Shown: positions 11,423-41,454 of the stretch, piece after piece
Layout: each line of letters opens with the position of its first letter
How positions within the stretch are numbered: the stretch's first letter is position 1
Assembly: GCA_900618795.1 (NCBI GenBank)
Contig: UYJD01000003.1
Location: forward strand, 1,723,336 to 1,787,335
Origin: Cyanodermella asteris
Lineage: Eukaryota; Ascomycota; Lecanoromycetes; Ostropales; Stictidaceae
Direction: 5' to 3'
DNA: 64,000 bases
Translations under genes and position numbers: made by a program
The notes under the pieces: generated by a model
What the model was told of the DNA's origin: nothing
Database searches by the model: none
Seen by the model: the letters and a program-made list of their open reading frames with translations, nothing else

Positions 11423-13706
11423 TCAGATGATTTCTATCTCGTACCTTCCACCGCCCAAAGCTTCGAGGTAATGGGAGCCGCCGAGTTCGGAACCAGCTAT
11501 CCACCACCATGGAGCAGGTACAGGCTCTTCGATATTCCGTCGGCCATCTGAAACCGTCGTCGACCTGAGTGGAGGGAGTTCTGAGTTTGATGATGGCCCA
11601 CCAAATCGAGGCTCCGCCGCCAGAAATACTGGCTGCAAAGCGACTCTTATATAAGTACCTTTCCGGCCCTCCACTTGACGTAAGAGCATAAGAGTATACT
11701 CGGTATCCTTGTAGCGATTGTCTCTTTGTAGTGGAAGGACATGAGTCGGAGTCAATTCCCTGATGCACGTGTCGTCGTCTTTGCCCTGTGAGCATCTGAA
11801 GATCGTTGAAATGTATTCTACCCAAGTCGTCTCCAGGTATCCTCGACCGCCATTCCTCTTGCGAAAGTCGGTTACTGCAACGAGAGGCCCTTGTAGTTCG
11901 TGGAGATATATTATTAACCCTCTGATGCGGAGAGCACCGCCTTGAAAGGAATTGAATGCATTAGCGCCCAGTGTACGAATCGTTGCTTTCAAAATCTCGA
12001 ATTGTGGACTCCACTCCTTACCACGATAGGACCGAAATTTGAGGAACTTGATGGATCGTGGGCATGATGCCCATGACCACGATGGTGCCAGAGAGTGCCA
12101 AATTGGGGTGACAAACTGCTCGCGATCATCTTCTTCCGGTACACCTCTCCACAGAATGTCTCTTACGATTTCTGAGCGCCACAAGCCCGCCAAATAATCC
12201 GATGGAGCCAAATTCCATCGCTGTCCAAACTTCTCGGCGACGCCCGAGAAAGCAACGAGCTTATCTGTCATGAATTTAAGTTTGAGAGCTGAATAAGCCT
12301 CCACCAACTTCTGCCAATTTTCACTTTCAATTTCGTCATGAACTCGCAGGATTGTGGGGAAGCTGCCATGATCGACGATCTCCTTGTCGAAGTGTTGCAA
12401 ACATTGCCAACTCAGCTCAGTCAGTGGGAAGTGTATTACACGAGTGGAGAGGATGGTTTCTTGATACACCCAAGCTCTGCAACTGATCGGAGCTAAGTCA
12501 GGGTCGTAGAGCCACTTTTCGGGCGAGTGACAGAATGGCTGCACAGCCCAGATGCCGCGAAGAAACTCGGGCTGAGATTGCTCGAGAGCGAGCGTACAGG
12601 ATGGGTAAGGGTACTGTTGATTCTGAGCAAAAAGCCCTCCGGTGCTGTCAGAAGCTGCCGTTGCGGCCAAGGTGACCAGAGACCCCGAATAAACGTCTTT
12701 CATTCTTGATGCTTGATCGACCCAATCACTTACGGAGTCCTGCACGATGCAGAGAGCGTCCACCCATATATAATCAATACGAATAGATTTTGCTGCAATC
12801 GTTGCTTCTCGGAAACTACGTGGAAGGTTTTCAAAGGGTATCTCGGAGCACCAGTCCATATAGCAAGACCTGAGCAGCTGGACGGGCGGCCCTTCGGAGC
12901 CCCAGCAGTGAGACAAAGTAGCATATTGTAACCTCTTACCCTGGACATCAAGACTTGTAGTCTCAACCAGTCTGAGACTGATCTTACTCACATGTACCCC
13001 GGATTTCGACCAGACGCAGCGGCAGCTGATCACCCGAGAAGTCGTGAGCGATGCAATCAGGGTGATTCATAGCACAATCATCAAGCCGGGCCCGAATTCA
13101 TTCCACGGTCTTGGTTCGTATTCCACCCGTATAGTCATCTCGACGTCCAAAGTCATGAAGTCTGGGCAGGACCTTGAGATCTAGGCTGTTGTAATTCAGC
13201 CCAGACATCCGTAAGATATGCTGGTTGCATGGCTCTTTGGTGACTGGGCTTATGGAAATAAGCCCTGTAACGAGAGAAGGGCAGTCCAGCTTGCCGTTTT
13301 TTTCCCGGACCCCAAAGCCAAGGAACAACAACGACTGCTCTGCGACATCATCGTGGGGACTTTCGGACAAGTCCATGACGATCAACGTACAAAGCGCGCA
13401 GTTCTTCGAAGAATGCAGATCCTTCAGGCTTTTATGAAGTAAGAGCGTCATATCAGGTGGGATGTCCTCGGCAAGCTCGAGCTTGAGAGCAGAGAGAATA
13501 GTCTCATCCGCGCAACTGAGTCGATAATGGCTCTCGCCATAGTTCATGTGAGCAAGCCTGCCTTTCTGGGATAGAGGCACATAAACCTGGTTGCAATGAG
13601 CCAGCACTGATGCTCCTTGTGTTGTAGTTTTGACCAATGGACTGGTGGTCAGCAAGGTGCATTTATCGCGAAGTACATGGGTGTCCGTAGAGGTTCCAAA
13701 CGACAT
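11423..13706 (-). pseudogene. HET-domain (heterokaryon incompatibility) gene, interrupted reading frame
   Basis: The minus-strand 3' two-thirds is an open frame with all HET landmarks: YATLSHCWG, then LPRSFREAT, IDYIWVDALCIVQD, the CRAWVYQE block and a variable C-terminal half. Upstream, a second open stretch carries the usual pre-HET region (SLKDLHSSKNCALC, like the family's GC-x-LC block). The bridge between them shows IRARLDDCAMNHPDC and LPLRLVEIRG (equivalent to the family's C-x4-H-x2-C and PTRLLDV) in the upstream frame, then ISLRLVET in the downstream frame. The bridge holds an in-frame TGA near 13103 where a Trp is expected, and a one-base frame change near 12995. No pair of good splice sites removes both. 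HET proteins trigger cell death on fusion of incompatible strains; null alleles are common. I take 13706 as a likely start (MSFGTSTDTH), but the N-terminus is uncertain. Confidence 0.7.
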
Positions 13707-25046: not shown

Positions 25047-26910
25047 ATGGAAGTCTCAGATCAGGACCCTCCAATGGTGACTCCTCCAGAAACTTCGTCA
25101 GAGCCAGAGGAGCCACAAGCTCGAAAAGTGCCATTGCACGGGTTCCGCAACACACCAGAAGGACCACGATCTTGGGTCGGTACCCCGAAGGCTTCGTGAT
25201 TCGTGGGTTCTACTAATCTGCGGACAGTACACCGACACCTTGGTCTTGTGCTTGATGGCCTTTTTATTCGCTCCACTGGCAGTATACTTCCGCAAAGGAG
25301 TCAGCGGGTCGCTCTTCTTGAACGTCTTTCTCATGTTGATCAGCTTTGGTATCCTCGGCATCATCCATGCCCTGATCGTGCTCTGCCACTCCGATCCAGG
25401 TCATGAAAAGGTCAGATCTGAACGGAAAGAGATTGAATGGCAGCAAAAGCATGCCAATCGGGAATACCCCGGTCCGCATCGTTTCATGAGGTTTCGTCAA
25501 TCGTGGCGTCCTCGGCACCGAATGCCGCCGCCTCACCAGCGTGGTCAGCATCGAAGCCATCATGACCGTAAGCACGACCCTCATACGCAACACCGCGGTC
25601 ATGAACATGGGAATCCTCAGCACGAGCCTGGTAGAACCTCACCGGGATCTCAGCATCATCGACATCATGGCACAGAGCATGACAGACACCACCAACACGG
25701 TCAGCACAACAGTGACAGTCCTCCACCGGGTCCTCCCACTCCCCCAGTGCCGGCGGATGGCCCTGACCGGGGAAGGAAGTCTACAGATGCCTCTCGCAAG
25801 CCGTCTATGGCTTCCCCATCAAAGCACAACACAGGCCTGAGCGATGCGAATCCGTCACGAAAGCCTTCGGTCGCCACTCCATCGGCAGACCAATCGTGGA
25901 GACCCTCAAATGTTGACCCAGATCAGTCACGCAAACCATCCATGGGAGTCTCATCGGCAGACCAATCGCGAAAGCCATCACTCGCTCCACCATCGAGATC
26001 GGGTACTGGCTATGATTCTGCACCTTCTTCGCGGAAACCATCTCTCATTCCACCGTCAAAACGTCCGACAGGCATAAGCGGAGAGGCGCCCTCCGCCCAT
26101 GCATCTGATCGAGACGGGAATGACGCTGACAACGAGGATGATTCGGGAAGGAAACCGCTGTCGAAAGCCCCCACGGCAGCGGATGCAGGTGTCGGTGCTG
26201 GCGTCGATGCAGAACCACCCGGTGAGCCTGTCGTCGAGCCAGTTGTTGAGCCAGTGGTCGAACCGGCAGTCGAGCCTGGAGTCGAGCCGGGAGTCGAGCC
26301 GGTAGTCGAGCCGGTAGTCGAACCCGTCGTGGAATCGGTAGTCGAGCCTGTCGTGGAGTCTGTCGTGGAGCCTGTCGTGGAGCCTGTCGCGGAGCCGGTA
26401 GTCGAGCCGGCAGTCGAGCCCGTTGTCGAACCGATAGCCGAGCAGGTAGTCGAACCGGCCGTTGAACCAGTCGTCGAAGAACTAGACGCGGACGGCAATC
26501 CTGTGCCACCCAATGCTGGCCCGGTGAGTAACAATGCTACGCCTTACCTCTTCATCCCCGGCGGATGGACGGACGGAGCATTCGAAGTGATTACACTTTT
26601 CTTTACAAAAGGGCATCAGAAAAACTGACTGGTATGTGTTTTGTATCTAGTGAAGACCGGGAATGGAGCTGAGGACCCTAAGCTCGACGACGAACGGCCA
26701 ATTCGAAGCGATGCCGCCGCTGGACCCGACGAGGAGGCTGATGCTGCACAGTCTGAGTCGGGGCACGGCGTAGTTGGTGTCGAGCCTCCGATGGACACTG
26801 AGGCGATTGTGGCCCGTGTGTTTGAAGATTATGTGTCGGGAGGGGATGAGAGTGGGCCTGCTCGGCGCGGAGATGACGAGGCTATGGCTGCTGCGGTCCG
26901 TCAGGCCTAG
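25047..26910 (+). CDS. PMP3-like (UPF0057) membrane domain with long repetitive C-terminal tail
   Basis: Probable exons 25047-25175, 25228-26523 and 26656-26910 (559 residues). Exon 2 opens with a hydrophobic pair, FLFAPLAVYFRKGVSGSLFL and then NVFLMLISFGILGIIHALIV, which matches the PMP3/stress-response proteolipid signature (LPPLGVF, GC-x-INI-LT, GIIHA). PMP3 proteins are normally 50-60 residues and modulate plasma-membrane potential. Here the domain is followed by a His/Arg/Pro-rich stretch, about six SRKPS-type repeats (consensus R-x-x-S for basophilic kinases), and a 21-unit EPVV repeat. The 25176 donor (GTCGGT) is weak, but the branch and acceptor TACTAATCTGCGGACAG are strong. The 3' end is uncertain: the canonical TAG acceptor at 26650 would stop the protein at once, whereas one 5 nt later continues an acidic frame to a TAG at 26908, after which the frame is open for another 39 codons. 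Confidence 0.65.
26224..26475 (+). repeat. 12-bp coding minisatellite (21 EPVV units)
   Basis: Twenty-one consecutive 12-nt units translate to E-P-V-V with variants EPAV, EPGV, ESVV, EPVA, EPIA and EQVV. Third codon positions vary (GAG/GAA, GTC/GTA/GTT/GTG), and some neighbouring units are identical at DNA level (around 26280-26330), which suggests recent slippage or unequal exchange. The array lies inside the tail of the PMP3-like protein and keeps the frame. Confidence 0.9.
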
Positions 26911-27285
26911 GAGATGAAGAATGCGCGGGATGTTCCGGAGAAGATTGCTGCGTGGGAGGATGTGCCGGAGCATCGTGAAGAGTTGGAGAAACAGAGGAAA
27001 GGTCATATGGTTTGGAAAGAAGACTTTTGACGGACAGAAACGTTCGGTTGATGGTTTTGTTTTGGGGTTGTTTACTTTTATTCTTGGGTGCTGTTCTGCG
27101 CTCGGCTCGATCCTTTTTCACTCGGTCCTTGAAGCCCTTTGGTGGGTGTCTCTCACTTCGTTTCCTAGAGTTCTAGAATGCTAATCAAAAGAACTACCCA
27201 AGAAACCAGGTCTTCAGCTTCGTGATAATAGAATGTTTTGTGTGATGACTTTTCGAAAATAGTGCCTTTCTGCCGCAAAGCTGCT
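26911..27285. other. 3' region of the PMP3-like gene
   Basis: The first ~120 nt continue the reading frame of the preceding gene past its TAG (reading EMKNARDVPEKIAAWEDVPE and beyond) and look coding. The rest is T-rich and looks like a 3' UTR convergent with the aldolase gene. Confidence 0.45.
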
Positions 27286-28311
27286 CTATCGGCCTTCAGC
27301 AAAGTCGACGACTCTCTTCAGCACTTCGCCGAGTTGCAGCCCCCCTTTTCCATCACCATCCTCCAAAGCCTCAATCCGACCCATCAAGCCCCTGATCTTC
27401 TCCTTCGCACTATCATCAATATCAATATACGGTCTCCTAGGCAGCACCAACTTCTCCGCACCCCTGATCCCCGCCCTCTTCGCCGTAAACTCCCCCGCCG
27501 CGAACTTGGTACTCGCAATCCCCGCCTTCGTCGGCGCCTCCGCCAACGCCAGAATCTTCTGCAAAACCAACGCCTCCTCATTCCTCCCCTCCTTCCACAA
27601 CCCGTACAATCTCGCCACGGATCTCGGGAAGATGTTCGCAAACGGAGCTATACACCCCGCGCTCCCCACCGCCAAGCCCCCGAGGAGGAAATCCGACTGT
27701 CCCCCAAACACCGCAAACCGTTCCGGCGGAAACAGCGCCGCCAGCCTCGCAACCTTCGCCACGGACCCGCAGGTGAGTTTCACGCCCACGACATTACCGT
27801 GTCGACGCGCGATCGCCGCGATGGTCTCCGAGTCCAGATCCAACCCGTTCGTCACAGCGGGGAAGTTGTATAGGATGATCGGCAGCTTGCTCACTTCCGC
27901 GACTTGGTCGAAGAATCCGTTCACCACCGCGGGTGTAGTCTGTTTCCCGAAATACGCACACGGTAAAAGTAGCGCGTAGTTTGCCCCTGCGTCGGCGGCA
28001 TCGTCGATGTATTCGAGGACTTGAGCGGTGGAGTGGCCCGAGACGCCGGCTATGATGGGGTATGAGGGGCCGACGGCGGCGCGGGCGGTGCGGAGGAGGG
28101 ATGCTCGTTCCTGGCGGGTTAGGAGGAGGGTTTCGGCGTTCGTGCCGAGGATTACGAGGCCGGTTAGGCCCGTCTTGGAGAGATAGGCGTAGTATTTGGA
28201 TTGCTCGGCGAGGTTGAGGGTGTCGGTGTCCGGGCCGAAGAAGGTTATTGCTGGGGCGTAGGTGCCGGGGGGAGGGGCGGTGGGGGTGTTTGATGGTGAT
28301 TGGGAGCCCAT
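27286..28311 (-). CDS. DapA-family class I aldolase, candidate 4-hydroxy-2-oxoglutarate aldolase
   Basis: Intronless, 341 residues. It is a dihydrodipicolinate synthase/N-acetylneuraminate lyase superfamily barrel: LVILGTNAETLLLTRQER near the N-terminus (the substrate-carboxylate loop), IILYNFPAVTNGLDLDSETI with the catalytic Tyr (about 147), and VVGVKLTCGSVAKVARLAAL with the Schiff-base Lys (about 177). Fungi do not use DapA for lysine, so members serve in catabolism, for example cleaving 4-hydroxy-2-oxoglutarate to pyruvate and glyoxylate (the last step of hydroxyproline breakdown) or keto-deoxy sugar acids. The neighbours PUT1, a Put3-like factor and P5C dehydrogenase favour the hydroxyproline role. 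This is inference from context. The Pro-rich start lacks a clear mitochondrial signal. Confidence 0.85.
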   Translation of the reverse strand: MGSQSPSNTPTAPPPGTYAPAITFFGPDTDTLNLAEQSKYYAYLSKTGLTGLVILGTNAETLLLTRQERASLLRTARAAVGPSYPIIAGVSGHSTAQVLEYIDDAADAGANYALLLPCAYFGKQTTPAVVNGFFDQVAEVSKLPIILYNFPAVTNGLDLDSETIAAIARRHGNVVGVKLTCGSVAKVARLAALFPPERFAVFGGQSDFLLGGLAVGSAGCIAPFANIFPRSVARLYGLWKEGRNEEALVLQKILALAEAPTKAGIASTKFAAGEFTAKRAGIRGAEKLVLPRRPYIDIDDSAKEKIRGLMGRIEALEDGDGKGGLQLGEVLKRVVDFAEGR

Positions 28312-28478
28312 GGTGGAGTTTGAAGCAAGGGAAAGTGAATGGATAGTTCGAGGACGGTGAGAATGAGCTGTATGATAAAAAAAGTGATGCTAGGTTATTC
28401 TATTGCTCGAAGTATTTGGGGCCGGAGTTTAGAGTTTACTTGATTCAATATGGCGAGCTAAGCTCAGTCACTCAACTT

Positions 28479-28493
28479 CGGATCGGCTACCCG
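28479..28493. promoter_or_regulatory. CGG-N9-CCG box upstream of the aldolase
   Basis: CGGATCGGCTACCCG, an inverted CGG pair with a 9-bp spacer, lies 168 bp upstream of the aldolase ATG and just past the PUT1 stop. It fits CGGA-N6-ACCCG, as do two boxes before P5C dehydrogenase. Inverted CGG triplets are the usual targets of dimeric Zn2Cys6 factors. Confidence 0.45.
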
Positions 28494-28577
28494 CTCCTCC
28501 AATCAGCCCCACATCTCCACCCATGGTCCACAATACTAGTATCCGCATTATCTGTCCGCCCACAATCACTTGACCCT

Positions 28578-30203
28578 TCATGGATCTCGACGGAACGACC
28601 GAGGAATCAGCTTCCGACCCACGCGCCTCCTCAGCTCACCCGAATAAGCCGACAAGCCATCCCTCATCCTCTCCGATGCACCCGCATTCTCCACCATGCG
28701 CCGGAACAGATACTGAATACACTCCTGCACGCTCCCCCACGTCAGACACTTGTACACCTTCGGCACGAGTCTCTTCTCCCGCGTCTTTCCCATGCCCTCG
28801 CAGTGCTCCAGCAACTCGCACCCGAGTAGATCCGCCATTCCCTGTAATTGACCGAAATCGGGGAGGACTTTCAGCCGCTGCTGGTCGGCGAGGGTGCGGA
28901 CTAGAGTTGCCGCCGTGCGCACGCTGTCGGGGTTGTGGCCGGCGAGGAAGAGTTGCATCTTGGGAAACTGGGTTTCGGGAAACCCCAGGTTCGTGCCTTG
29001 CAAAAGGTCCTGCACGATGCTGTTGTAGGAGGCGTCTGTGTCGGCTTTGGTGTCGTGAATCTTATCTCGTCGGTCGTTGGCTATGTAGGCGCCGCGGACG
29101 AGCTTGGTGCCCAGGACCCAGCGCTCGTTGCTTGCTAGGCTGAGCTGGTGCTTTAGCTTGTCTCGGGAGTCTTTGAGATATGCTTGGACTGTGTTGTAGA
29201 CGAGAGCGCGGTCTCTGTTCCACTTGCGCATGAGGTCGATTGTCCAAAGATCGATTGATTTTTGGACGGCTTGCTGTTCGGCATCGATCCAGATTCGTGT
29301 GTTCTTTTCGTGGGCTCGTTGACAGACTCGGTCCATGGCTTCGCGGAACTCGACGGGAATCGGTTCGTTCTTGAGCAGTGCTTCTGTGACTTGAGTTCCT
29401 GCTCCGGTCATCCTAGCAATTGTTAGCCTTAGTCTCTGTTTCGGGCTCGCGAAGCTCACTCACTTGATACCGATCCAGTCGTCCGGCCCACACATGTTCA
29501 ATGTCTCCAAATAGCCATCCCGCCACTGCGAAACCTCGCTGCCCGCTGCCTGCCCGGAGGAGGTTGAATGCAGCTTGTTATCCTTTGAGATTTGCACTTC
29601 TCTGCCCAGACACAATACCACACCGGCGAAGCCCATATTCCTGATCGTCTGCCTCGACCTGAGCACCTCTTTCTCATTTACACCCGCGCAAAAGGCATCG
29701 TAAACCAAATTTCTCGTCAAGTATTTGACAATCGGATTCCTCTCCGGACTATAGAGGATCGATTTGGAGTCCGCGATCCGATCGATGAGGGGCATCGTCA
29801 TCTTAATTAGTGCCGGGGATGTGAATATGGAACCGAGAAGTAAGCTCCTCAAAAGCGATGAAGTTGGCATTCGTTCGAGAGCATAATTTCGCATAGGTGC
29901 CTTTCTGGCAGGGCTCGCCGAACAGCCAGAAGGGTAGAATTCTGCGCCCTTGAGACTTGAGATATCGAATGCGGACGATGCTCGATGCGTACTGGTGGAT
30001 CTCTTTGCTGTGGTTGAAGCATTTCGTACGCCTATGTGCACAGGCGCTTTCCTCCGAATTGATATTGGAGCAAGTGGTGTGTTTCGAGGTGCGAATGTGA
30101 GTGATGCTTTGCTCGTCGCCATTGTGCTACCAGAAATAATACCCACGATTGAGTGCTGACAGCCTCTGTGCACGAGCTCGAACCGCCTTATCCTGGTTGC
30201 CAT
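28578..30203 (-). CDS. PUT1: Proline dehydrogenase (proline oxidase), mitochondrial
   Basis: Two exons, 29464-30203 and 28578-29412, with a 51-nt intron (GTGAGT donor, GGCTAACAATTGCTAG end), give 524 residues. The Arg/Ser-rich N-terminus looks like a mitochondrial presequence; a second ATG at 30122 is an alternative start. Splicing joins DDWIGIK to MTGAGTQVTEALL. The FAD-binding barrel shows RIWIDAEQQAVQKSIDLW, TKLVRGAYIANDR and LAGHNPDSVR, and the terminal YLFRRMVENAGA matches the family's substrate-binding YLxRR-x-x-EN. The enzyme oxidises L-proline to pyrroline-5-carboxylate, passing electrons to the respiratory chain. It is the first step of the pathway completed by the P5C dehydrogenase 5 kb away. 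Confidence 0.95.
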
Positions 30204-30676
30204 ATTTGCCTGTTACCAGACGAATATAATTGCTCCAGTGTGCAGCAACACAAAGCTGCCCCTCACCACTTCGAGCAGATATCGCCATTGGTTTTATCAG
30301 CCGCATAGTCTTATCACGTCAATGATGCTCATTGATAGTGGCATGATACCAATGTGGGGTTTCGGATTTGGTGTCCAGATCTGGTCTCGCAATTGGCCTT
30401 GACACCGGAAGGGCAAGCCGAAGCCGTCTTGCGCCGCACCGCTGGCCTCTGGATTATGGGTTCTGTTCCCCGCTTTCGACCATTCGTTTGTTTAAACATG
30501 CTAATCGTGGTTGGTGAGCCGATGCGGGGGTTTGCCGATAGGGATGAACGCTCGGATACTCGCGGATGACAGGCCTAGCTCTGAAGGCTAATGCAGAGTT
30601 CTGACACCACCATTGACAGATCGTGAGAGCTTTGACTCCGCGTCCAACCATATCTGTTGAGTCTCGCTTGTCGCCT
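30204..30676. other. PUT1 promoter region / 3' end of the Zn2Cys6 gene
   Basis: About 470 bp between tandem minus-strand genes. It contains one CGG-N9-CCG box (listed separately). No gene was recognised. Confidence 0.5.
30406..30420. promoter_or_regulatory. CGG-N9-CCG box upstream of PUT1
   Basis: CGGAAGGGCAAGCCG lies about 205 bp upstream of the PUT1 start. It has the same 9-bp spacing and the same A after CGG as the other three boxes, but ends AAGCCG instead of ACCCG. Confidence 0.4.
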
Positions 30677-33328
30677 TTACATGCTGTTGAGTGGCATGTT
30701 GAATTCGCCGGTTGACAGCCAGTAGTCCAACCGGTCAAAGTCAAATGCCTCCGCTACCGACTGGAGCTGGTGCGCATTCAGCAGACCATCTTCAGAGCTG
30801 CTGAAATCACCCGTATCAGCGAGGAAATCAAACCCTGTGGGACTAGATTGTGCGACGGCTGGTGCTACCATTGGTTGCCCAGTCATGTCGACCTCGTTAA
30901 CAGCTTGCATTTCGATGGGCTGATCCCCTTGACGGGCAACCGAATGCTGGCTATCGACCGAGCCTTGCAATTTCTTGATGCAGGCGGCCAGTTGTCGCAA
31001 TTCTGAAATGTGGAAAGTGGCCATCACATTGCCACGTGTAGTCATCTCCTCCAAGATTTCGTATGCCATGGGAATCCATCCGGAGTTGCCGCGAAGCAAT
31101 GATTGGTCCACAGCGAGAGTAAGATTGAGCACAACTGCGGAAGAAAACGCGCCATCGCGATCGAAAGGTAGAAAGCTGTCTGCATAGAGTTAGCTGATTT
31201 CAACTGAGGCCTTTATACCCCACTTATCCAGAAGCCCTTGCAACTGCAATGCTTTAAGAATGCGCAGGGACTGCTTGGCAGAACTGACACACACACGGAG
31301 TAAAGATCGTGCACCTCCTTCAGACGTGATCCTGAACGACTGCGGCGAATCGAGCCTTTTCTGCCAAAAGTAGAAGAGTAACGGTCTTGTTGCGAGCACA
31401 AGGCACTACAAACCTACATTAATACTGCTGCAAGAGCGGCTATGGACGGAAGGACGACATACCTGGTGGTGAAAGAGGTGTAAGTAAGCTGACAGCCTGC
31501 ATATCCCGGATGATGTGTCGCAAACATTAACTGGAAACTTCTTGTCTCGCTCATCGCTACCCTCTGCGATCGCGCGCAAAGCCTCTTTCATAATTTTGAG
31601 AAGTGGCTTATCATCTTTGCTGTTTTTGCCGTACACAGCTGCAAAGCTGATCAGTACATGGCTGGCTGTTGAATACGAGTTGGACTTACTTCGCAAGATT
31701 ATCGACGTTGCTTTGCAGAGCTGTACGTGATGGCTCAGAGCCAACGACCTCCGTGCAGAGTTTCCGAGGGACGGCAACGGCGTTGAAATGTCGTTGTCGG
31801 ATATTGACAACGGTGTCCCCATTAAGCTTGTCATTCGGCGGTCCAGAACGTAAACCGTCCACCACACATCACGACACCGTTCCACAACGTCCCCAGAGCC
31901 AATTCGGCCGGTCATATCGGTGTGCATACCTTGTTCGACTGCTAATCGCATTGCCTGGCCAATCTATTCGTGTTAGTAAATAATGACCATACTTGTCCAC
32001 GGATGATACATACCACGTTGAAAGCGGCGCTTCGCGAGTCGAGGCACTGTAGATATAGGGCTGCACATATCAGTATCTCGATCGACTGGACTGGGTCTGT
32101 GTATAGGAAGCCGATGTCTGGCAGAAGCTTCATGGCTCGCGTGAACAACTCAGCACCAGGCGGGCTTCGACCACTGCCTGTTCGAACGATGAAAGCTTTG
32201 CCAAAAGCAAGCACCAGCAAGTAGTGAATGAACCACAGGATAGGTGGCTTCTTTGCATTTTCCGGTTGCTCGTGAAAGATTGCAAAATGTGACATGAAGA
32301 CTTTCTCGTCGAAAACGTGGAGAAGACGACTGCAATGAAATTTGACGGCATTGATGAGGAAGACTGCATAGTCTGCCGCTGGGAGAGACGAGCAATCGAT
32401 GGCATCTCCATCACGAAGACCATCCCAGCCCAGGTCATAAGTTGCGCCCTGGAATAGAAGGCTTTGAGGTGGTAAGGCATAGCCTTCGACTCTTTCGTGC
32501 GCCATGTTCAGAACCCTTCGACCGAAGGACCAGTTCGACGACGTGCCGAGGTAGACTGCGAATAGAGCACGTCAGTCACCATCAAGATTGAGCTCTGTGA
32601 AGCTGCATACCTGCTTGGCCGTATTGGTTGACAGTCCATGATGCTGATTGGCCAGGGAGTAAAGGGTTTTGCAAGTCGGTATCTTCAGCCAAGGGACTAC
32701 CCACGCCTGCAGACGGACTGTTGGTTTCTGAGGCATTACCGGAGTATCCATCGTCGAAAGGGGCTCCGACTGGCGTAGGCGGATCGGGTGGTAGGGGAAC
32801 TGCATAGGTGGGGCCTGAACGATGGCGATGTCATTAGGCTGAATTCGAAGAAACAAGGTTTCATAACTGTGAGGATCACACACTGTTATCAAGCTGGTGC
32901 TCGATACGAGTGTCAGTGGGCAAGCGGTCCAAGGATCCAGGGTGGGCGATAGATGGGGACGCTCGGCTCCTTTCCGATCCGAGTCTGTCAAATGCAGAGC
33001 CTCTTGCAGCCTCTTTCTGAAGCCTTGCAATGTAGCTGTTTCATTATGCTTGATCAGAGCTTGGCTTTCGCAAAATGGATTGAATGTGGTGGATGGCATC
33101 TGCTTACCTCGCGTCAACGAGTATTTTGTGGTTCCCGGTCTCGAACTTGCAGGTCACGTTCCGCTTGGTGCATTGCTGACAGGGTCGTGAGCCTGTGCAT
33201 TTGATCTTTTGCTGACGACATCGGATACAACTGCAGGGAAAGTGTTAGACTTCGATATATCGTAGGTGATGCCAAATGTCTTACGCGTTGGGCACGCGAG
33301 GACGTTTCCGGATGCCGTTGGCTTGCAT
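30677..33328 (-). CDS. Zn2Cys6 transcription activator, Put3/PrnA-like
   Basis: Nine exons on the minus strand: 33285-33328, 33108-33230, 32884-33023, 32611-32814, 32014-32555, 31690-31963, 31463-31638, 31219-31405 and 30677-31179. Together they give 730 residues with all phases closing. The zinc cluster (about residues 16-41) is CIRCRQQKIKC then TGSRPCQQC with a final Cys six residues on, spacing C-x2-C-x6-C-x5-C-x2-C-x6-C, as in yeast Put3. The following HKILVDA-R-LQ also resembles Put3's linker (KKIVVSTKYLQ). The middle homology region shows YLGTSSNWSFGRRVL, IEILICAALYLQCLDSRSAA and CRDVWWTVYVLDRRMTSLMG. The acidic C-terminus could be the activation domain. Put3 and A. nidulans PrnA activate proline-use genes. 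Position between PUT1 and P5C dehydrogenase supports that role. The 39-nt intron at 31180-31218 is the least certain junction. Confidence 0.85.
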
Positions 33329-33541
33329 ATCGAAATTGAAGCTACAACGGCAGGACGCCAGCCTTCACTGCATCTCGATACAGGGTTAGGGAGACAGGCA
33401 AGTAATGCATTGTCTTCACAACGGTCGCTCGTACCAGGCCACTTGGGCCTAGCTGGTAGCATATCAGCGAGTGGAGCTCAGACACGGCAGTCGGCGTGCG
33501 GGGTACAAAGTTGGCTTTGATGGCATTTTAGTCATAAAGCG

Positions 33542-34466
33542 TTACATATCTCGAGCGTATCGAATGGCCTTGCGTACTGAATTGGCAACTCCAGAAGGGA
33601 CATTGGCTGTTTGGAGATCCATGATGGCGTTGATGGTGATGCCGTTTGGCGTCGACATGGCCGCTTTGAGCTGCTCCGAGCTCATGCCGCCGGCACAAAA
33701 CAGATTGCTCGAGCTTCGGAGACTCTGAGCTGCCAAACGCATGGCAGTCGGGCGATCGAAGCCCTCAGCAACGCTGGCATCGGTGATGGCGTCGAGAGCA
33801 TAGATGTTGAGAGCGTTACAGGCTGCGCCAATGGCCGTCGCGTCGTCCATCAGCTTCTCCGACACACTGACGACGCTGCCAACCCGCTCGAAGAGTTTCA
33901 CCACCTTGTCCTCATGGATGTCAGGTAGAAACTCGGACTTCGCCAGCAGTGTTACCGAGTCTCCGATCTTGGCTCCGATGCTCGGGATAACGCGAGCGAT
34001 ACTGATTTGTCCCTCTCCGTCCGTGCCCTTTTCTGCTTGCATTGCCAATCGTTTCGCCAGCGACCCTGTCGACACACCGGCCATCCGGCTTATCACCAGC
34101 TTGCCCTTCAGCGCCTCTGCTAGACCTGCCGTCTGAAGCAAAGAATCAAGTTCGCCAGGCACGCATCCTAGCATGACTGTTTCAGCGATCTCAACCGCCT
34201 CAGCGAGCCTATCGGCCTGCAAGACGACAACCTGGTCCTCGAATCCACTGATATCTTTCCGTAACCGTTTTACTGATGCTTCGCTTCGAACACATGCTGC
34301 GTATCCCCTGACTTGTGCTTCCTCCTTGTCCTTGTTGAGCAGTCCCTGCAGAATGGCTGTTCCCATAAATCCTGTTCGATTTATCAGTATCACTTCTTGC
34401 TATCTGAGCATACTACTCACCACAGCCAAGAATTGCCACCTTGCCTTCCAGCGTTGATCCGCTCAT
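33542..34466 (-). CDS. Pyrroline-5-carboxylate reductase family protein
   Basis: Exons 34421-34466 and 33542-34371, with a 49-nt intron, give 291 residues. Splicing restores the Rossmann start KVAILGCGFMGTAILQGLL (G-x-G-x-x-G). The C-terminal helical dimer domain has DDATAIGAACNALNIYALDA and FDRPTAMRLAAQSLRSSSNL, though the usual family core is SGSGPAY-like, so this is a divergent member. P5C reductases make proline from P5C with NAD(P)H in the cytosol. Finding one among proline-degrading genes is odd. It may recycle P5C, act on 3-hydroxy-P5C, or reduce another cyclic imine such as pyrroline-2-carboxylate. It is divergent from P5C dehydrogenase across about 950 bp that carries CGG boxes. Confidence 0.85.
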
Positions 34467-35092
34467 CTTGAGAATTGTTGGTTTTGGCTCGAATCAACCA
34501 ACATTTGTGTTGTTTGTTTTGATAATTTTTGCTTCGGCAGAGGGAAGGCAGGCCGAAGAAGCCCAGAGCAACGTTCACAACTTATAGTCCACCTGCCACG
34601 CGGACCCTTGTACGTGAGCTTCCGGTCCGAGATCCACCACCCTGCTTGTTATACTACACCAGCAGAGGTTTGATGCGTGTCTGAATATCTGGAAAGTGGT
34701 TTTAACCTCCTCTCCCTTGGTGTGGATTGAGCTTTTTGGCTCCTAGCTACAGCTTAATTGCCAGCTCGCGGACAGGATACATGTTCAAGCGCTTCAATTC
34801 AGATTACGAATGTGGAGCCATGAGCGGGAGCCGCAGTCGTGACCAGAACGTCTGTAGCATGTTTCGCAGCTTGTGTATGCCCCCCAAGTGATCGATAAAG
34901 TTCAAGTCCAGATGTCGGCAGCGAGGAAATCCCCTCCCAGCTTCTGAGAAGCAATCTACGTGATTCGTGAAACTGACGAATAGGCTTTGAAACCGGTCCT
35001 CAGCTTCGATACTTGATATTCGGCCGCCTGCTAACCCAGTGAACCTTGGGTCCGTCTGGTGGGGTGGCTATCAATTCAGAGAACCTGGCCGA

Positions 35093-35108
35093 CGGTAGCC
35101 GGACCCCG
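35093..35108. promoter_or_regulatory. CGG-N10-CCG box
   Basis: CGGTAGCCGGACCCCG has the 10-bp spacing known for yeast Put3 sites. It is 315 bp upstream of the P5C dehydrogenase ATG. Confidence 0.35.
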
Positions 35109-35172
35109 CTTCGCATGTCATGGGTGTGCTCAAAACATGGTGCACCAAGATGTCCGGGATAGTTGATGAAGT

Positions 35173-35187
35173 CGGAGGCGTGACCCG
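35173..35187. promoter_or_regulatory. CGG-N9-CCG box 1 of P5C dehydrogenase
   Basis: CGGAGGCGTGACCCG fits CGGA-N6-ACCCG. It is separated by only 3 bp from a second box of the same form. Confidence 0.5.
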
Positions 35188-35190
35188 TGT

Positions 35191-35205
35191 CGGATGATCG
35201 ACCCG
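35191..35205. promoter_or_regulatory. CGG-N9-CCG box 2 of P5C dehydrogenase
   Basis: CGGATGATCGACCCG fits CGGA-N6-ACCCG. Together with the preceding box it forms a tandem pair 18 bp apart start to start, 218 bp upstream of the ATG. Confidence 0.5.
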
Positions 35206-35422
35206 ATCTATTCTATCTGAACTCCACTTCTGCTCATTCAATCGACGACCGACCTTGTTGCTGGGTCAAACTAGCCATGCTTAAGGTCAGCTCCAACTCT
35301 GTCACCATGTTGCAAAAAGTCCAACACGTCAATCCTCTAGAAGTCGAAAGGGACTGTCGACACATAAGCCGACCGTCTCGAGGCTTACAGCAGCCTAGTC
35401 CTGTAATTATTATACCTCGACG

Positions 35423-37217
35423 ATGAAGAGCTACAGAGTCCTCAGCCAAGCAAAGCCATCGTCGTTACCGAGCAGGTCTCAACAGTTCCAAAACAGACCA
35501 GCCGCCAGAGTACCAACAAGAAGCTTTCATTCAGGCACCTACAGAGTTCCAAAAGCCTCCAACGAACCCAATGTGAGTGAACGGTTACATCCCCTTGATG
35601 CTTTTGACTAATACGCTTTAGCAACATTATGTCAAATCATCACCAGAGCGCAAGCATCTCGAGTCAGCATTGGCCTCTTTGAGACAACGAATACCAATGC
35701 GAGTGCCCGCCGTCGGTGGACCTCACACATCAAATACCAATGGTTCGCTCACATCAATGTCCATGCCGGCCGAACACGGCACAACATTCGCAGAGTACGG
35801 CTCAGCGACCGAAGCTCAAGTCAACCAAGCCATCACAAACGCACTCGCGGCGAAGGAGGAATGGGCGGGAATGCCGTTCACCGACCGAGCAGCGATTTTC
35901 CTCCGAGCGGCCGAACTCGTCACTGGCAAGTATCGCTACGAACTCATGGCGGCTACAATGCTGGGTCAGGGCAAGAATGCCTGGAAGGCTGAAATCGACG
36001 CCGCTGCGGAACTAGCCGATTTCTTCCGCTATAACGTTGCTTTTGCGCAGGAGATTTATGACAAGCAACCGACGGTGAATGCACCTAGCCATCATGGTCG
36101 GACGGATTGGAGGCCTTTGGAAGGCTTCGTTTACTCGGTTTCGCCCTTCAACTTCACTGCAATTGGTGGCAATCTGGTATCGGCACCGGCTATCATGGGC
36201 AACGTGGTCGTTTGGAAACCAGCGCCCATGTCGGTCTACCCAAGCTACCTCGTTCATAAGATCCTGCTGGAAGCTGGTCTCCCAGAGGGTGTTGTTCAGC
36301 TCGTCAACGGTGACCCAGGTCTGATCACCAATACCGTTCTGGAACACAAGGACTTCTCAGCGCTCACATTCATCGGATCTTCAACCGTCTTCCGCAACCT
36401 CTACGCACAGATCGGAAAGGGCGTCGGCGAAGGAAAGTACCGTGACTTTCCACGCATGATGGGAGAGACCTCCGGCAAGAACTTCCACCTTATCCATCCC
36501 ACAGCAGACATCCCCAACGCTGCTCGCCATACAATCCGCGCCTCCTTCGAATACGCCGGCCAAAAATGCTCAGCTTGCTCCCGCATCTATGTTCCCCAAA
36601 GCCAAGCAGACACCTTCTTCGCCGAAATGGAAAAGGAGCTCGCACAAATCAAAGTCGGCCCACCAGAAGAGTTCGGCGCCTTCACTGGCCCCGTCATCGA
36701 CCGCAAATCCTTCAACAAGATCAAGACCGCCATAGACTCCGCAAACAAAGACCCCGACCTCACGACCGTCGTCGGCGGCACTTACGACGACACCACCGGC
36801 TTCTTTATCGATCCCACAATTTACATCTCCAAAACCCCGTCCCACTCACTTTTCAACACCGAGCTCTTCGGGCCTGTCCTCGTCGCTTACGTCTACCCGG
36901 ACAACGAGTTCGAATCCGTGCTGGAGCACATTGACAAGCACGGCGGCGGCCTTGCGCTGACGGGCGCCATATTCTCTCACGATCAGAAAGCCATCAGACT
37001 CGCGGAAGACAAGTTGAGGTATGCGGCTGGTAACTTTTATCAGAATTGCAAGATTACGGCGGCGGTCATTGGGCAGCAGACTTTTGGGGGCGCGAGGGGG
37101 AGTGGGACTTGTGATAAGGCAGGTAGCTCGAATTTGTTGATGAGGTTTACGGCACCGAGGACGTTGAAGGAGGAGTACAATAAGATGGGCGATGTGCTGT
37201 ATCCCAGCAATCTTTGA
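35423..37217 (+). CDS. PUT2: Delta-1-pyrroline-5-carboxylate dehydrogenase, mitochondrial
   Basis: Exons 35423-35572 and 35622-37217, with a 49-nt intron ending TGACTAATACGCTTTAG, give 581 residues. Exon 1 is a mitochondrial presequence (Ser/Arg-rich, containing RSFHSG). The aldehyde dehydrogenase core shows VYSVSPFNFTAIGGNL, MGETSGKNFHLIHPTAD with the general-base Glu (about 330), and EYAGQKCSACSRIYVP with the catalytic Cys (about 364). The C-terminus GARGSGTCDKAGS and the GDVLYPSNL ending are typical of the P5CDH clade. The enzyme oxidises P5C/glutamate semialdehyde to glutamate with NAD+. It also handles the hydroxylated substrate of the hydroxyproline pathway. Confidence 0.95.
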
Positions 37218-38125
37218 GATGAAGAGTTGAACGAGATGTCAGAATAGTAGATATTGGCAATCTCTTGTCTTGCGAAATCGAACGTTTGCTCAGGCTCATC
37301 TCAAGTGACAAGCATTCATGCTGTGGTGACATTATTCAATTTCAAGCTGAAGACAAAATTAATCTGATAGGCGTCATAATGAGTGGAAATGAGCATTGGT
37401 CGCCATAATTGATAGTGTCGAGCCCTCTGCAACGACTGCACAAGTTCTGTAGCCGCAAACTTGCTACCTTGCCGTCCTTCCCAGACATCAAAGACGATCC
37501 CACATTCTATCGCAAACATGCCCCTTCCCCCGCAGGCCACGATAAGGGGAAGTGACTTGAGCACCGCCACGACTTCGCCCGCATACAGCTGCATCGCTTC
37601 AGATGACCTCGTCCCACTTCCCAAACAGGCAATATTTCGCGCCGCCGTCCCGACAACGTGGCATCGGATATCCCGAGCTGCACGGAGCCGGGAGCTACGG
37701 AAGTCGTATCAATCCGCTCATCCCTGTCTAGCTTTCTGATGCATGAGCTATCGTTGGCACATGCATGCGCGATAGACTATCGATATGCGGGTCGTAGAGC
37801 CATCTCGAGCCACCCATCATGCTGAACAATGAGGGGTGAGTACCATGTGCATCGGACTTCAGATCGAGAGTCAGAGGTCCAAAGTTGGTCCGAATGGCGG
37901 GATGTCCGTCCATTGCGATGGTGCGGTGTCTGTGAACGTGTATCGTGATCGTTAGACTGTTCAGGATGTGTTGACTGTAGTCGTTCAATTTGAGAAGATG
38001 GAGGCATGGCGAGCAACATGGTGAGGTTCTCGAGGAGCCCACTTTCACGGTGTCGCCAAACTCGTTCGAAGATCTATCTGAACGTTCTCGTCCAACAGCG
38101 CTTCACTCATCAAGATTCGTCTACC
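37218..38125. other. Intergenic region P5CDH to flavoprotein oxidase
   Basis: About 0.9 kb. Two modest minus-strand open frames (37316-37624 and within 37728-38048) show no recognisable domain. The plus-strand frame of the next gene is open from 38006 and may add an N-terminal extension. No CGG-N9/N10-CCG box was seen. Confidence 0.45.
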
Positions 38126-39499
38126 ATGGGCATCTCAAAGGACAGTCAGATCTCAATCATCGGAGGCGGAGCATGGGGCCTTTCAACGGCTCTACACCTC
38201 AACGCCGCCGGGTACGAAAGCATCACGGTCTTCGAACGAGCTGCCGAGCAGCCTTCGAGGTATTCCGCCGCATGGGACATTAACAAGATCGTGCGGGCCG
38301 AATATGAAGATCCATTCTACACCAAACTGGCATTGGTAAGTCACGCAACTGTAACGAGCAAGCCTCGTGGAAGACAGCCAACTGACAGCGCAAACCAGGA
38401 AGCAATCGAAGCATGGAAAACACCTCTATTCGGCCCATACTACCACGAAACCGGCTACGTCGTCGCAGCCACCGGCCGCGCCCCGCAAAAGGCAATCGAC
38501 CACCTCGAAAAGGCTCTGTCGTCCATCGAAAGCGATCCCGTTTTTGCTCCGGGAATCCAGCGTCTCGGCGGCGCAGCGGATTTCAAAAAGTACACCTGGC
38601 AGTACTCTGGGCCCCTGACCGGTTTCAAAGGCTACTTCAACCGACTCGCCGGCTACGCGCACTCCGCGGACACGCTCGTGGGAATCTGGAAGCACTGCGC
38701 TAGCAAGGGCGTCAAATTCATCCACGGCGAGCAAGCCGGCAAAGTAACCGAGCTGGTATCCTCCGGCTCGAAGACGACGGCCGTCAAGACAGCGGATGGT
38801 AGAATTCACGCTTCCGACCTCACGATCTGTGCGCTGGGAGCGCATGCCGCGAGGTTGATCCCTTCGATCGGCAATTTCACGACCGCGCGCTGCTGGTCCG
38901 TCGCACACGTGCAACTCGACGAAGAAGAAACCAACCTCCTCCGCGGTATCCCGACCACGAACGTCCGGGACCTGGGCTTCTTCTTCGAGCCCGATCCCGA
39001 GACCCGGCTGTTCAAGCTCTGTCCGCTCGGCACGGGATACACCAACACGTCCCCTGGGACGGGAATCTCGCTGCCTCCCGCCGAGGAACTGCCGGAGCCG
39101 CAGGACTTTATCCCGGCGGAGGACGAGCGGAAGTTGAGGACTCTGTTGCGGGAGACGTTCCCGTGGATGGCGGACCGACCGTTTGTGGAGCAGAAGCTGT
39201 GTTGGTTCTCGGATACGAGGGATTCGGAATATTGTATCGATTTTGTTCCGGGGACGAGCAGGTCGGTTGTCGTGCTTTCGGGGGACTCGGGGCATGGGTT
39301 TAAGATGATGCCGATTTTTGGCAAGTGGGTGGAGGAGCTGGTTGAGAGGGGTGAGCAGGTGAATGAGAGGTGGAGGTGGAAGAGTGAGGATTTGAGGGGG
39401 CAGGATTGGGGGAAGACTGTCAGTTGGAGAATAGGGGAAGGGAGGGAGTTGAAGGAGTTGATAAAAGAAAAGGAGAGGATGATTCGTGCGAGACTCTGA
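38126..39499 (+). CDS. FAD-dependent amino acid oxidase-like protein (sarcosine/pipecolate/fructosyl-amino-acid oxidase family)
   Basis: Exons 38126-38335 and 38399-39499 give 436 residues. The N-terminus ISIIGGGAWGLSTALHL is the FAD dinucleotide-binding fold. KLCWFSDTRDSEYCIDFVPG holds the Cys that binds FAD covalently in this family, and LSGDSGHGFKMMPIFGKWV is the conserved C-terminal block. Members oxidise secondary or cyclic amines (sarcosine, pipecolate, saccharopine, Amadori products), releasing H2O2, often in peroxisomes; no SKL-type end is present here (RARL). The 63-nt intron is in frame and stop-free, so retained transcripts would add 21 residues. An in-frame upstream ATG (38006) would add an Arg-rich 40-residue leader. 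Location beside proline genes suggests a cyclic amino acid substrate, but this is inference. Confidence 0.85.
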   Translation: MGISKDSQISIIGGGAWGLSTALHLNAAGYESITVFERAAEQPSRYSAAWDINKIVRAEYEDPFYTKLALVSHATVTSKPRGRQPTDSANQEAIEAWKTPLFGPYYHETGYVVAATGRAPQKAIDHLEKALSSIESDPVFAPGIQRLGGAADFKKYTWQYSGPLTGFKGYFNRLAGYAHSADTLVGIWKHCASKGVKFIHGEQAGKVTELVSSGSKTTAVKTADGRIHASDLTICALGAHAARLIPSIGNFTTARCWSVAHVQLDEEETNLLRGIPTTNVRDLGFFFEPDPETRLFKLCPLGTGYTNTSPGTGISLPPAEELPEPQDFIPAEDERKLRTLLRETFPWMADRPFVEQKLCWFSDTRDSEYCIDFVPGTSRSVVVLSGDSGHGFKMMPIFGKWVEELVERGEQVNERWRWKSEDLRGQDWGKTVSWRIGEGRELKELIKEKERMIRARL

Positions 39500-39687: not shown

Positions 39688-41454
39688 CTACTTGATGTCA
39701 GTCCAAGCACCTTTTTCCTGTCCGCCATTCACCATCGCACTCTGCTCATGCCCATTACCATTCCCCAAGGCCTTCTTCGTCGACCTTGACTGCACCAAGC
39801 TCAAGTCCATCTGGTATGTATCGTCCTCGCACTTCTTCATGATCTCCGTTAAAATCCAGCAGAACCTCGCACACTCCTCGAACGTGTTATACAGCGGCGC
39901 CGGCGCCACACGGATGACATCCGGTTTCCGTTCATCCAACACTATGCCGTTGTCTTCAAGGTGGTTCATCACACTATCCAGATACCCGTTGCCGATCCGC
40001 ACGCTGAGCTGCGCACCGCGCGCGGCCGGGTCGGTCGGCGTGATAATCCAGAAAGGTGCTTCCTTGTTCTTGGACGTCCATTCGGTAGCACGATAATGCT
40101 CGAGCATCCGCTCCGTGAAGCCCGTCATTGCAAGACTCTTCTTCCGCAGCGAAGCCATGTCCGTTTTCGCAAACACTTCGAGACTCCCCTGGAGGGCGGC
40201 GAGAGCCAGCGCGCACGGGTTGGAGACCTGGTAACCCCATGCACCCGGGCGTGGAACAAAGGACGTCCCGCGATCGGTCTTCATTTCAAACCGCTCGTTC
40301 TTGTGTACGCCCCACCAGCCCGCTAGCCGGTGTCTGTACGCCTTCTCGACGTCCCCGGATTCCAAAGCTGTTCTGTCGACTTGTGAGTGTTTTTCGTGTA
40401 CGAACAGCCCGCCGATGGCTCCGGGTCCGGCGTTGACGTATTTGTAGTGGCACCAGACGGCAAAGTCGACGTTCCAGTCGTGGAGTTGCACGGGGACGTT
40501 GCCGACTACGTGGGCTAGGTCCCAGCCGATTGTGAGGCCGAGGGAGTGGGCGTGCGCGGTGATGGTGGGGATGTCGAAGAGTTGGCCGGTGAAGTATTGG
40601 ATACCGGGGAGGAGGACGAGGGCGGTCTCGGAGGCGTGCTGGGTTAGGACGTCGCAAATTTGTGTGGTTGTAAGCAGGGGTCGGGCAAGGTCTTTGGGTT
40701 CGATTGTGATTAGGGAGTCGAGGGAGAGGCCGTGTTGGCGGAGTTGGGATTCAGCGGCGTACTATTTGTGTGTTAGTATATATACATAAGAATTTTGACA
40801 CATGAGAGGATATGCCATTGTCAGGTGGAGGCGACTTACGTGATCGCTGGGAAATGCTTTGCTTTCAATGATAATCTTGTGCTTTTGTGCTGTCGGCTGG
40901 TAGAAGCTGGCCATGGCGAAATGCAGGTTTGCCGTCAGGGTGTCCATGGCCACGACCTCTTCCTTCTGGGCTCCGACCAACGGAGCCACCAGCTCGGCGG
41001 CATGGTCATCGACGTCTGTCCACTGCTTCACGGCCGTGTCTTCAGCTTGGGTGAAGTGGCCAAAGACGCCACGCTGGGCCCAGTATGCGAGGTGCTCATT
41101 GATGCGTGTCTGAACCAGCTTGGGTTGTAGACCAAGTGAGTTGCCGCAAAAGTAGAGACATCCGTCTTCTTCGGCTGTATTTCTTGCTATATCAGAAGTT
41201 AGTCGATGGTCATATCAAAATATGCGACCAAACGTTCAAGGTCTATACGCTTGACAAGTTCTGACAACCATTATGCTTGAAAGAAGGAATTAAACACGAC
41301 GATGCTTACAGTTTCTATCGTTGACAGTCTTTGACTTCAAGTCCTGAATGGTAGGAAATATGAACTCATTGCGCAATTCGCGCAGAGGGTCAGCGGCATC
41401 AGACTTCTGTGCTTCGGCCTGGAACGCCTTGGTCTGATCTGAAACGTGGGACAT
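39688..41454 (-). CDS. BNA5: Kynureninase
   Basis: Three exons, 41310-41454, 40840-41186 and 39688-40761, give 521 residues. Signatures are YFCGNSLGLQPKLVQTRINE, ESKAFPSDHYAAESQLRQHG across the second splice, the PLP region LTIGWDLAHVVGNVPVQLHD, and WCHYKYVNAGPGAIGGLFVH containing the Schiff-base Lys. The C-terminus has a low-complexity extension beyond the usual end. The enzyme cleaves kynurenine or 3-hydroxykynurenine to (hydroxy)anthranilate and alanine, for NAD synthesis or tryptophan breakdown. The exon 1/2 junction (TCA codon) is slightly less certain than the others. It is divergent from ISA2. Confidence 0.93.

Follow-up and report, generated by a model that had tools for sequence, protein, structure and literature searches.

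A candidate hydroxyproline-type gene cluster with a Put3-like regulator and shared CGG-N9-CCG boxes in Cyanodermella asteris

The described systems closest to the locus studied here are the Put3 regulon of Saccharomyces cerevisiae, the prn cluster of Aspergillus nidulans and the mammalian pathway of trans-4-hydroxyproline breakdown. Yeast Put3 recognizes CGG-N10-CCG sites, and Candida albicans Put3 has been reported at a PUT1 promoter that lacks the classic motif (both in the passages of PMC5729217 cited here). Proline, but not hydroxyproline, elicits a response of the C. albicans protein, as stated in the cited passage of PMC10621835. For A. nidulans PrnA, sites of the types CCGG-N-CCGG and CCGG-N6/7-CCGG are given in the relevant passages of PMC5983819. 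In the mammalian pathway (HYPDH/PRODH2, P5CDH and HOGA), PRODH2 starts the breakdown of hydroxyproline, P5CDH and P5CR also accept OH-P5C, and the route ends in glyoxylate and pyruvate, according to the cited parts of PMC9930595. Discrimination between the two imino acids has been linked to a single residue of PutA, Tyr540, which favours proline over hydroxyproline (a passage of PMC3718742 that cites the original work).

The C. asteris cluster (Table 1) was studied within the window, i.e. the whole stretch of 64,000 nucleotides that was analysed. When compared by genes and sites with the A. nidulans prn cluster, as far as the passages of PMC5983819 describe it, the locus likewise unites a PRODH, a P5CDH and a Zn2Cys6 activator, and differs by an extra aldolase and a P5CR-like gene. 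With the mammalian trans-4-hydroxyproline pathway it shares a PRODH that is devoid of the gate tyrosine, a P5CDH, a HOGA-like aldolase and possible recycling by a P5CR. Unlike in the mammalian pathway, the fungal genes are clustered with a regulator of their own, the gate residue is a cysteine, and the aldolase shows a mixed set of active-site residues. All start codons used for the cluster genes are predictions. No permease or aminotransferase gene was detected among those scanned between 27 and 40 kb of the window. The gene adjoining the cluster P5CDH (38006-39499, plus strand) encodes an FAD enzyme that resembles fructosyl-amine oxidases (213.8 bits to 3djd) and is followed on the opposite strand by the C-terminal region of a kynureninase (39688-40284). 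On the other side of the cluster the window contains a gene with a HET (heterokaryon incompatibility) domain (11423-12859, minus strand) and an open reading frame (25255-26628, plus strand) in which many short repeats of the VEPVVEP type are found towards the 3' end.

Table 1. Predicted genes and CGG-CCG sites of the cluster, in window positions
Feature	Position	Strand	Remarks
DHDPS-family (HOGA-like) aldolase	27286..28311	-	Pfam PF00701, 123.9 bits
Box 1, CGGATCGGCTACCCG	28479..28493	+	168-182 bp upstream of predicted aldolase ATG
PRODH-family enzyme, candidate hydroxyproline dehydrogenase	28578..30203	-	one intron, 29413-29463; Pfam PF01619, 167.3 bits
Box 2, CGGAAGGGCAAGCCG	30406..30420	+	203-217 bp upstream of first predicted PRODH ATG
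Put3-like Zn2Cys6 transcription factor	30677..33328	-	several introns, the last two tentative
Diverged P5C reductase-like (P5CR-like) gene	33542..34466	-	short first exon predicted; PF14748, 73.2 bits
CGG-N10-CCG site (Put3-spaced), single	35093..35108	+	P5CR/P5CDH divergent promoter
Box 3, CGGAGGCGTGACCCG	35173..35187	+	236-250 bp upstream of predicted P5CDH ATG
Box 4, CGGATGATCGACCCG	35191..35205	+	218-232 bp upstream of predicted P5CDH ATG
P5C dehydrogenase (P5CDH, ALDH4-type)	35423..37217	+	short 5' exons; TIGR01236, 677.3 bits (cut-off 613.6)

The genome encodes a second copy of three of these enzymes, with a PRODH on contig C5 (36% identical to the cluster enzyme), a P5CDH on C6 (57% identical) and a P5CR on C11. 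Because the main PRODH exon found no PDB sequence match up to an E value of 1e-5, and a profile built from the two PRODH sequences gave only weak matches to PutA, we aligned the fungal enzymes directly with PutA of E. coli MG1655. PutA Tyr540 is placed opposite Cys469 in the cluster PRODH and opposite Tyr469 in the C5 copy. In PutA and in both fungal PRODHs this gate position lies fifteen residues ahead of the conserved arginine pair, and the PutA residues Tyr437, Leu513, Tyr552, Arg555, Arg556 and Glu559 are present in the two fungal enzymes as well. The alignment is poor around Lys329 and Asp370, with Lys329 facing no lysine in either fungal sequence, and nothing is drawn from these two positions. 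The cluster PRODH thereby displays the combination expected of a HYPDH, namely loss of the gate tyrosine (Cys469) with retention of the catalytic arginines (Arg484, Arg485). In the original prediction the genes were labelled as belonging to the proline pathway, a label that is not supported as it stands for a cluster whose PRODH is devoid of the proline-favouring tyrosine and whose PRODH, P5CDH and P5CR all have counterparts elsewhere.

Could this nevertheless be an ordinary proline-utilization cluster, i.e. a Put3/PrnA regulon whose enzymes are redundantly encoded elsewhere in the genome? The gene set resembles that of the A. nidulans prn cluster (as described in the passages of PMC5983819), the DNA-binding domain of the factor is Put3-like, and the cluster P5CDH lies above the ordinary P5CDH cut-off, as does the C6 copy with its higher score of 755.7 bits. 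However, it is the C5 PRODH that keeps the gate tyrosine, and it is the C11 P5CR that clears the proC equivalog cut-off of TIGR00112 (232.6 bits; cut-off 196.75), whereas the main exon of the cluster P5CR, scored alone and without the first exon, remains below it with 148.1 bits. In addition, an aldolase is part of the cluster, none of the 20 amino-acid permease (AA_permease) hits that were scored (20 of 49 candidates) falls into the window, and PrnA-type sites (CCGG-N-CCGG or CCGG-N6/7-CCGG) are absent from the four intergenic stretches of the cluster. Taken together, we consider an ordinary proline cluster unlikely.

The aldolase is less easily assigned. Its closest structure is 3qfe, annotated as 'putative dihydrodipicolinate synthase' (417 bits), and its match to human HOGA (97.6 bits) is barely above that to a DHDPS (96.3 bits). 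The Schiff-base lysine, the catalytic tyrosine and Asn78 of HOGA are kept in the alignment, and Ser77, Gly79 and Ser198 are replaced with Thr, Ala and Thr, respectively, in positions that were read off the alignment (residue roles according to the cited passages of PMC3188589). Only one other DHDPS-family match was found in the genome (locus L059; G000:C6:460369-461220, minus strand). This C6 copy scores 120.0 bits to human HOGA as opposed to 89.9 bits for the next named kind and is thus the clearer HOGA match, which makes hydroxyproline the best guess for the substrate of the cluster rather than a certain one. A cluster dedicated to another cyclic imino acid, such as 3-hydroxyproline or an analogue from plants or microbes, and subject to the same regulation, would be in line with an aldolase that is not clearly HOGA and with a cysteine at the gate, where human HYPDH has a serine. 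On the other hand, a PRODH, a P5CDH and a P5CR acting on a route from hydroxyproline to glyoxylate and pyruvate correspond to a pathway already described (in the cited parts of PMC9930595), and we rate a different imino acid as the least probable of the alternatives discussed here.

We therefore return to trans-4-hydroxyproline, or an imino acid close to it, as the substrate of a second, diverged proline-type pathway. The absence of the gate tyrosine from PRODH, together with the adjoining HOGA-like aldolase, fits hydroxyproline catabolism, and based on these features we regard a hydroxyproline-type cluster as fairly likely, bearing in mind that its P5CDH still clears the ordinary P5CDH cut-off and that the C6 aldolase is closer to HOGA. 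In the proposed pathway, the PRODH-like enzyme would oxidize the substrate to hydroxy-P5C, from which the cluster P5CDH would produce 4-hydroxyglutamate. An aminotransferase encoded outside the cluster would then form 4-hydroxy-2-oxoglutarate, the presumed substrate of the aldolase, which would release glyoxylate and pyruvate, and the P5CR-like enzyme might return hydroxy-P5C. This probable departure from the ordinary proline pathway is a stronger result of our analysis than the boxes discussed below.

The factor encoded in the middle of the group contains a Zn2Cys6 and a Fungal_trans domain, and its cysteines are arranged as C-x2-C-x6-C-x5-C-x2-C-x6-C, the Put3-like zinc-cluster spacing ascribed to it in the original prediction. 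Among solved structures, yeast Put3 is the best match to its DNA-binding domain (E value of 1.9e-10). The alignment is gapless over 51 residues, such that zinc cluster, linker and the start of the coiled-coil dimer helix correspond in the two proteins. Conversely, the Put3 DNA-binding domain found the cluster factor as its best match in the C. asteris genome with 34.6 bits, a modest margin over the next of the 29 candidates scored (28.1 bits). The factor has no close paralogue since the next match to it reached only 33.9 bits. Because its linker has the same length as that of Put3, sites with Put3-like N10 spacing are predicted. Yet the site at 35093 is the only one of this type in the three promoters concerned, and CGG-N10-CCG was thus not found before each of the putative target genes as it would be for Put3. 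The noncoding background holds 0.35 N10 sites per 1709 bp, a rate in which locus L032 is counted twice and one promoter includes 14 bp of the transcription factor gene.

All four N9 boxes and the N10 site were found where they had been predicted. An A directly follows CGG in each of the four N9 boxes, three of which conform to CGGA-N6-ACCCG, again as predicted. The A at spacer position 8 is likewise common to the four, resulting in the shared form CGGA-N6-A-N-CCG, which occurs 6 times in the window. The boxes are located upstream of the genes for the aldolase, PRODH and P5CDH, which are exactly the three breakdown enzymes. No N9 box is present between 30420 and 35173 or near the start of the transcription factor gene, and the P5CR-like gene, which shares a divergent promoter with the P5CDH gene, has its nearest N9 box more than 700 bp upstream. 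If the second in-frame ATG of the PRODH gene (30122) is considered, the centre of box 2 lies 291 bp upstream of it. Boxes 3 and 4 are identical at 11 of 18 positions when taken as 18-mers; box 4 may have arisen from box 3 as a tandem copy that has since degenerated, in which case the pair would represent a single event.

CGG triplets are common, and the most serious rival to a regulatory role is a coincidental grouping of such triplets into the boxes, with the factor binding elsewhere, for example to the N10 site at 35093 or to half-sites. The possible duplication of box 3 and the linker of the factor, which predicts N10, both speak for this explanation. About half a site of one fixed spacing had been expected by chance in the roughly 1.7 kb of promoter, and this estimate is borne out by the background, which amounts to 0.32 N9 sites per 1695 bp of noncoding sequence from the same genome (12 sites in 62,988 bp) and to 0.46 for all sequence (61 sites in 224,014 bp). 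This background was assembled from 40 stretches with a total of 224,014 bp. Most are loci of permeases, ALDHs and paralogues, joined by the parts of the window that flank 26,900-37,400, and they do not amount to a random sample of the genome; the overlapping loci L022 and L032, the motif-selected loci L001-L008 and L060-L072 and the cluster's own loci were left out. Across the entire window, N9 sites are about as frequent as in shuffles (19 as compared with 19.5), which also favours chance.

The promoters themselves were compared with 10000 random triples of noncoding stretches matched in length to the three promoters (1695 bp). Four N9 sites were found in only 1 of the 10000 triples, and four sites with a common inverted spacing, whichever it was between N0 and N16, in 78 triples; every promoter was hit in 29 of these. 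When inverted, everted and direct arrangements were all admitted, the numbers rose to 1681 for four sites of any single class and to 532 with every promoter hit, and these figures leave room for chance, whereas those for inverted repeats alone, and for N9 in particular, argue against it. In first-order Markov versions of these promoters (3000 draws), four N9 sites never occurred; one inverted spacing was reached in 6 draws (every promoter hit in 1) and any class in 247 (every promoter hit in 42). The spacers were compared with those of real N9 sites drawn at random in groups of four (20000 quadruples). Here the outcome depended on the measure: the summed pairwise identity of 27 was matched by only 104 quadruples, which speaks against chance, but two columns common to all four spacers were seen in 1340, a weak likeness, and three of four spacers sharing three columns in 4256, which is no likeness. 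The similar distances of the boxes from the three predicted start codons would arise by chance with a probability of 0.0028 for independent boxes and of 0.029 if boxes 3 and 4 are taken as one event; with PRODH starting at its second methionine, the respective values are 0.013 and 0.079. As all of these tests were devised after the boxes had been seen, they are read as suggestive. The four boxes moderately exceed chance, and we consider them plausible, though not proven, regulator sites. Set against controls, the predicted excess thus holds modestly for promoter triples and does not extend to the window.

The picture is different at the level of the genome, where the scan revealed no enrichment. 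CGGA-N6-ACCCG occurs 147 times in 28.5 Mb as compared with 262 occurrences of a letter-reversed control, and the paired motif has 21 matches as compared with 22 for its reversed control. Since the shared form CGGA-N6-A-N-CCG was found 730 times and its N10 equivalent 693 times, N9 is not preferred to N10 genome-wide, a further point in favour of chance. From the genomic rate of the strict form, CGGA-N6-ACCCG, 0.009 occurrences are expected in the three promoters, where 3 are seen, and across the genome about 0.09 triples confined to 6.7 kb would be expected, a figure that leaves some scope for coincidence. The original prediction had interpreted the 9-bp spacer as a lineage-specific change in half-site geometry relative to yeast Put3. 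Neither the Put3-length linker of the factor nor the genome-wide counts lend themselves to this interpretation, and yeast Put3 is hardly suitable as the sole yardstick given that, in the cited passages, A. nidulans PrnA binds other sites (PMC5983819) and C. albicans Put3 was reported on a PUT1 promoter that is free of the classic motif (PMC5729217).

Outside the cluster, no N9 box is present within 900 bp upstream of the C5 PRODH gene. One box each was found at -873 of the C6 P5CDH gene, at -461 from the open frame of the C11 P5CR (without the second shared A) and at -603 of the C6 aldolase-family gene (without the A after CGG). The regions upstream of 20 amino-acid permease matches contain 7 N9 sites in 26,000 bp, none of them of the form CGGA-N6-ACCCG; each region comprises 1300 bp upstream of the Pfam match rather than of the start codon, and loci L020 and L022 overlap. 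With the full form of the box absent, no regulon member was recognized outside the cluster among the pathway paralogues and the 20 permease matches. An inverted repeat of one PrnA type, CCGG-N-CCGG, was observed at one of the 20 permease matches (locus L015), 105 bp before the Pfam match at G000:C13:1188976-1190340.

Weighing these data, we consider a chance origin of the boxes a real contender that is nonetheless less probable than function, and the proposal that the four N9 boxes are sites of the cluster's own factor to be evenly poised. The Put3-like factor would sense the substrate and, as a dimer, bind the CGG-N9-CCG boxes, which lie some 175-243 bp upstream of the genes for the three breakdown enzymes. 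For the complete model, a cluster for hydroxyproline or a related imino acid run by its own Put3-type activator through N9 boxes, we estimate a probability of roughly 40%.

The canonical proline genes may be regulated in another way. A CCGG-N6-CCGG direct repeat lies upstream of the C6 P5CDH gene, at 226 bp from its predicted start codon (L046:3945-3958; G000:C6), and in 224,014 bp of background this arrangement occurs once, namely at this very site. No PrnA-type site was found near the C5 PRODH gene. This hints at different control of the canonical genes, although a single site on C6 could be due to chance. It is tempting to speculate that the activator has been re-aimed from proline to hydroxyproline, reads N9 instead of N10, and has left the canonical proline genes to other control; this more far-reaching scenario is doubtful. 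A hydroxyproline-sensing member of the Put3 family would be a real change because C. albicans Put3 ignores hydroxyproline, at least in the cited passage of PMC10621835.

In the open-licence literature we found no paper on a 9-bp spacer for such sites, and among the titles listed there none concerned clustered hydroxyproline genes of a fungus under a regulator of their own, which is weak evidence for novelty. Cell-wall proteins of plants and collagen are rich in hydroxyproline. If the proposed model is true, the C. asteris cluster would represent a clean case in which a regulator, its sites and the enzymes under its control have been re-aimed together at a new substrate, and it would include a change in half-site spacing that can be tested.
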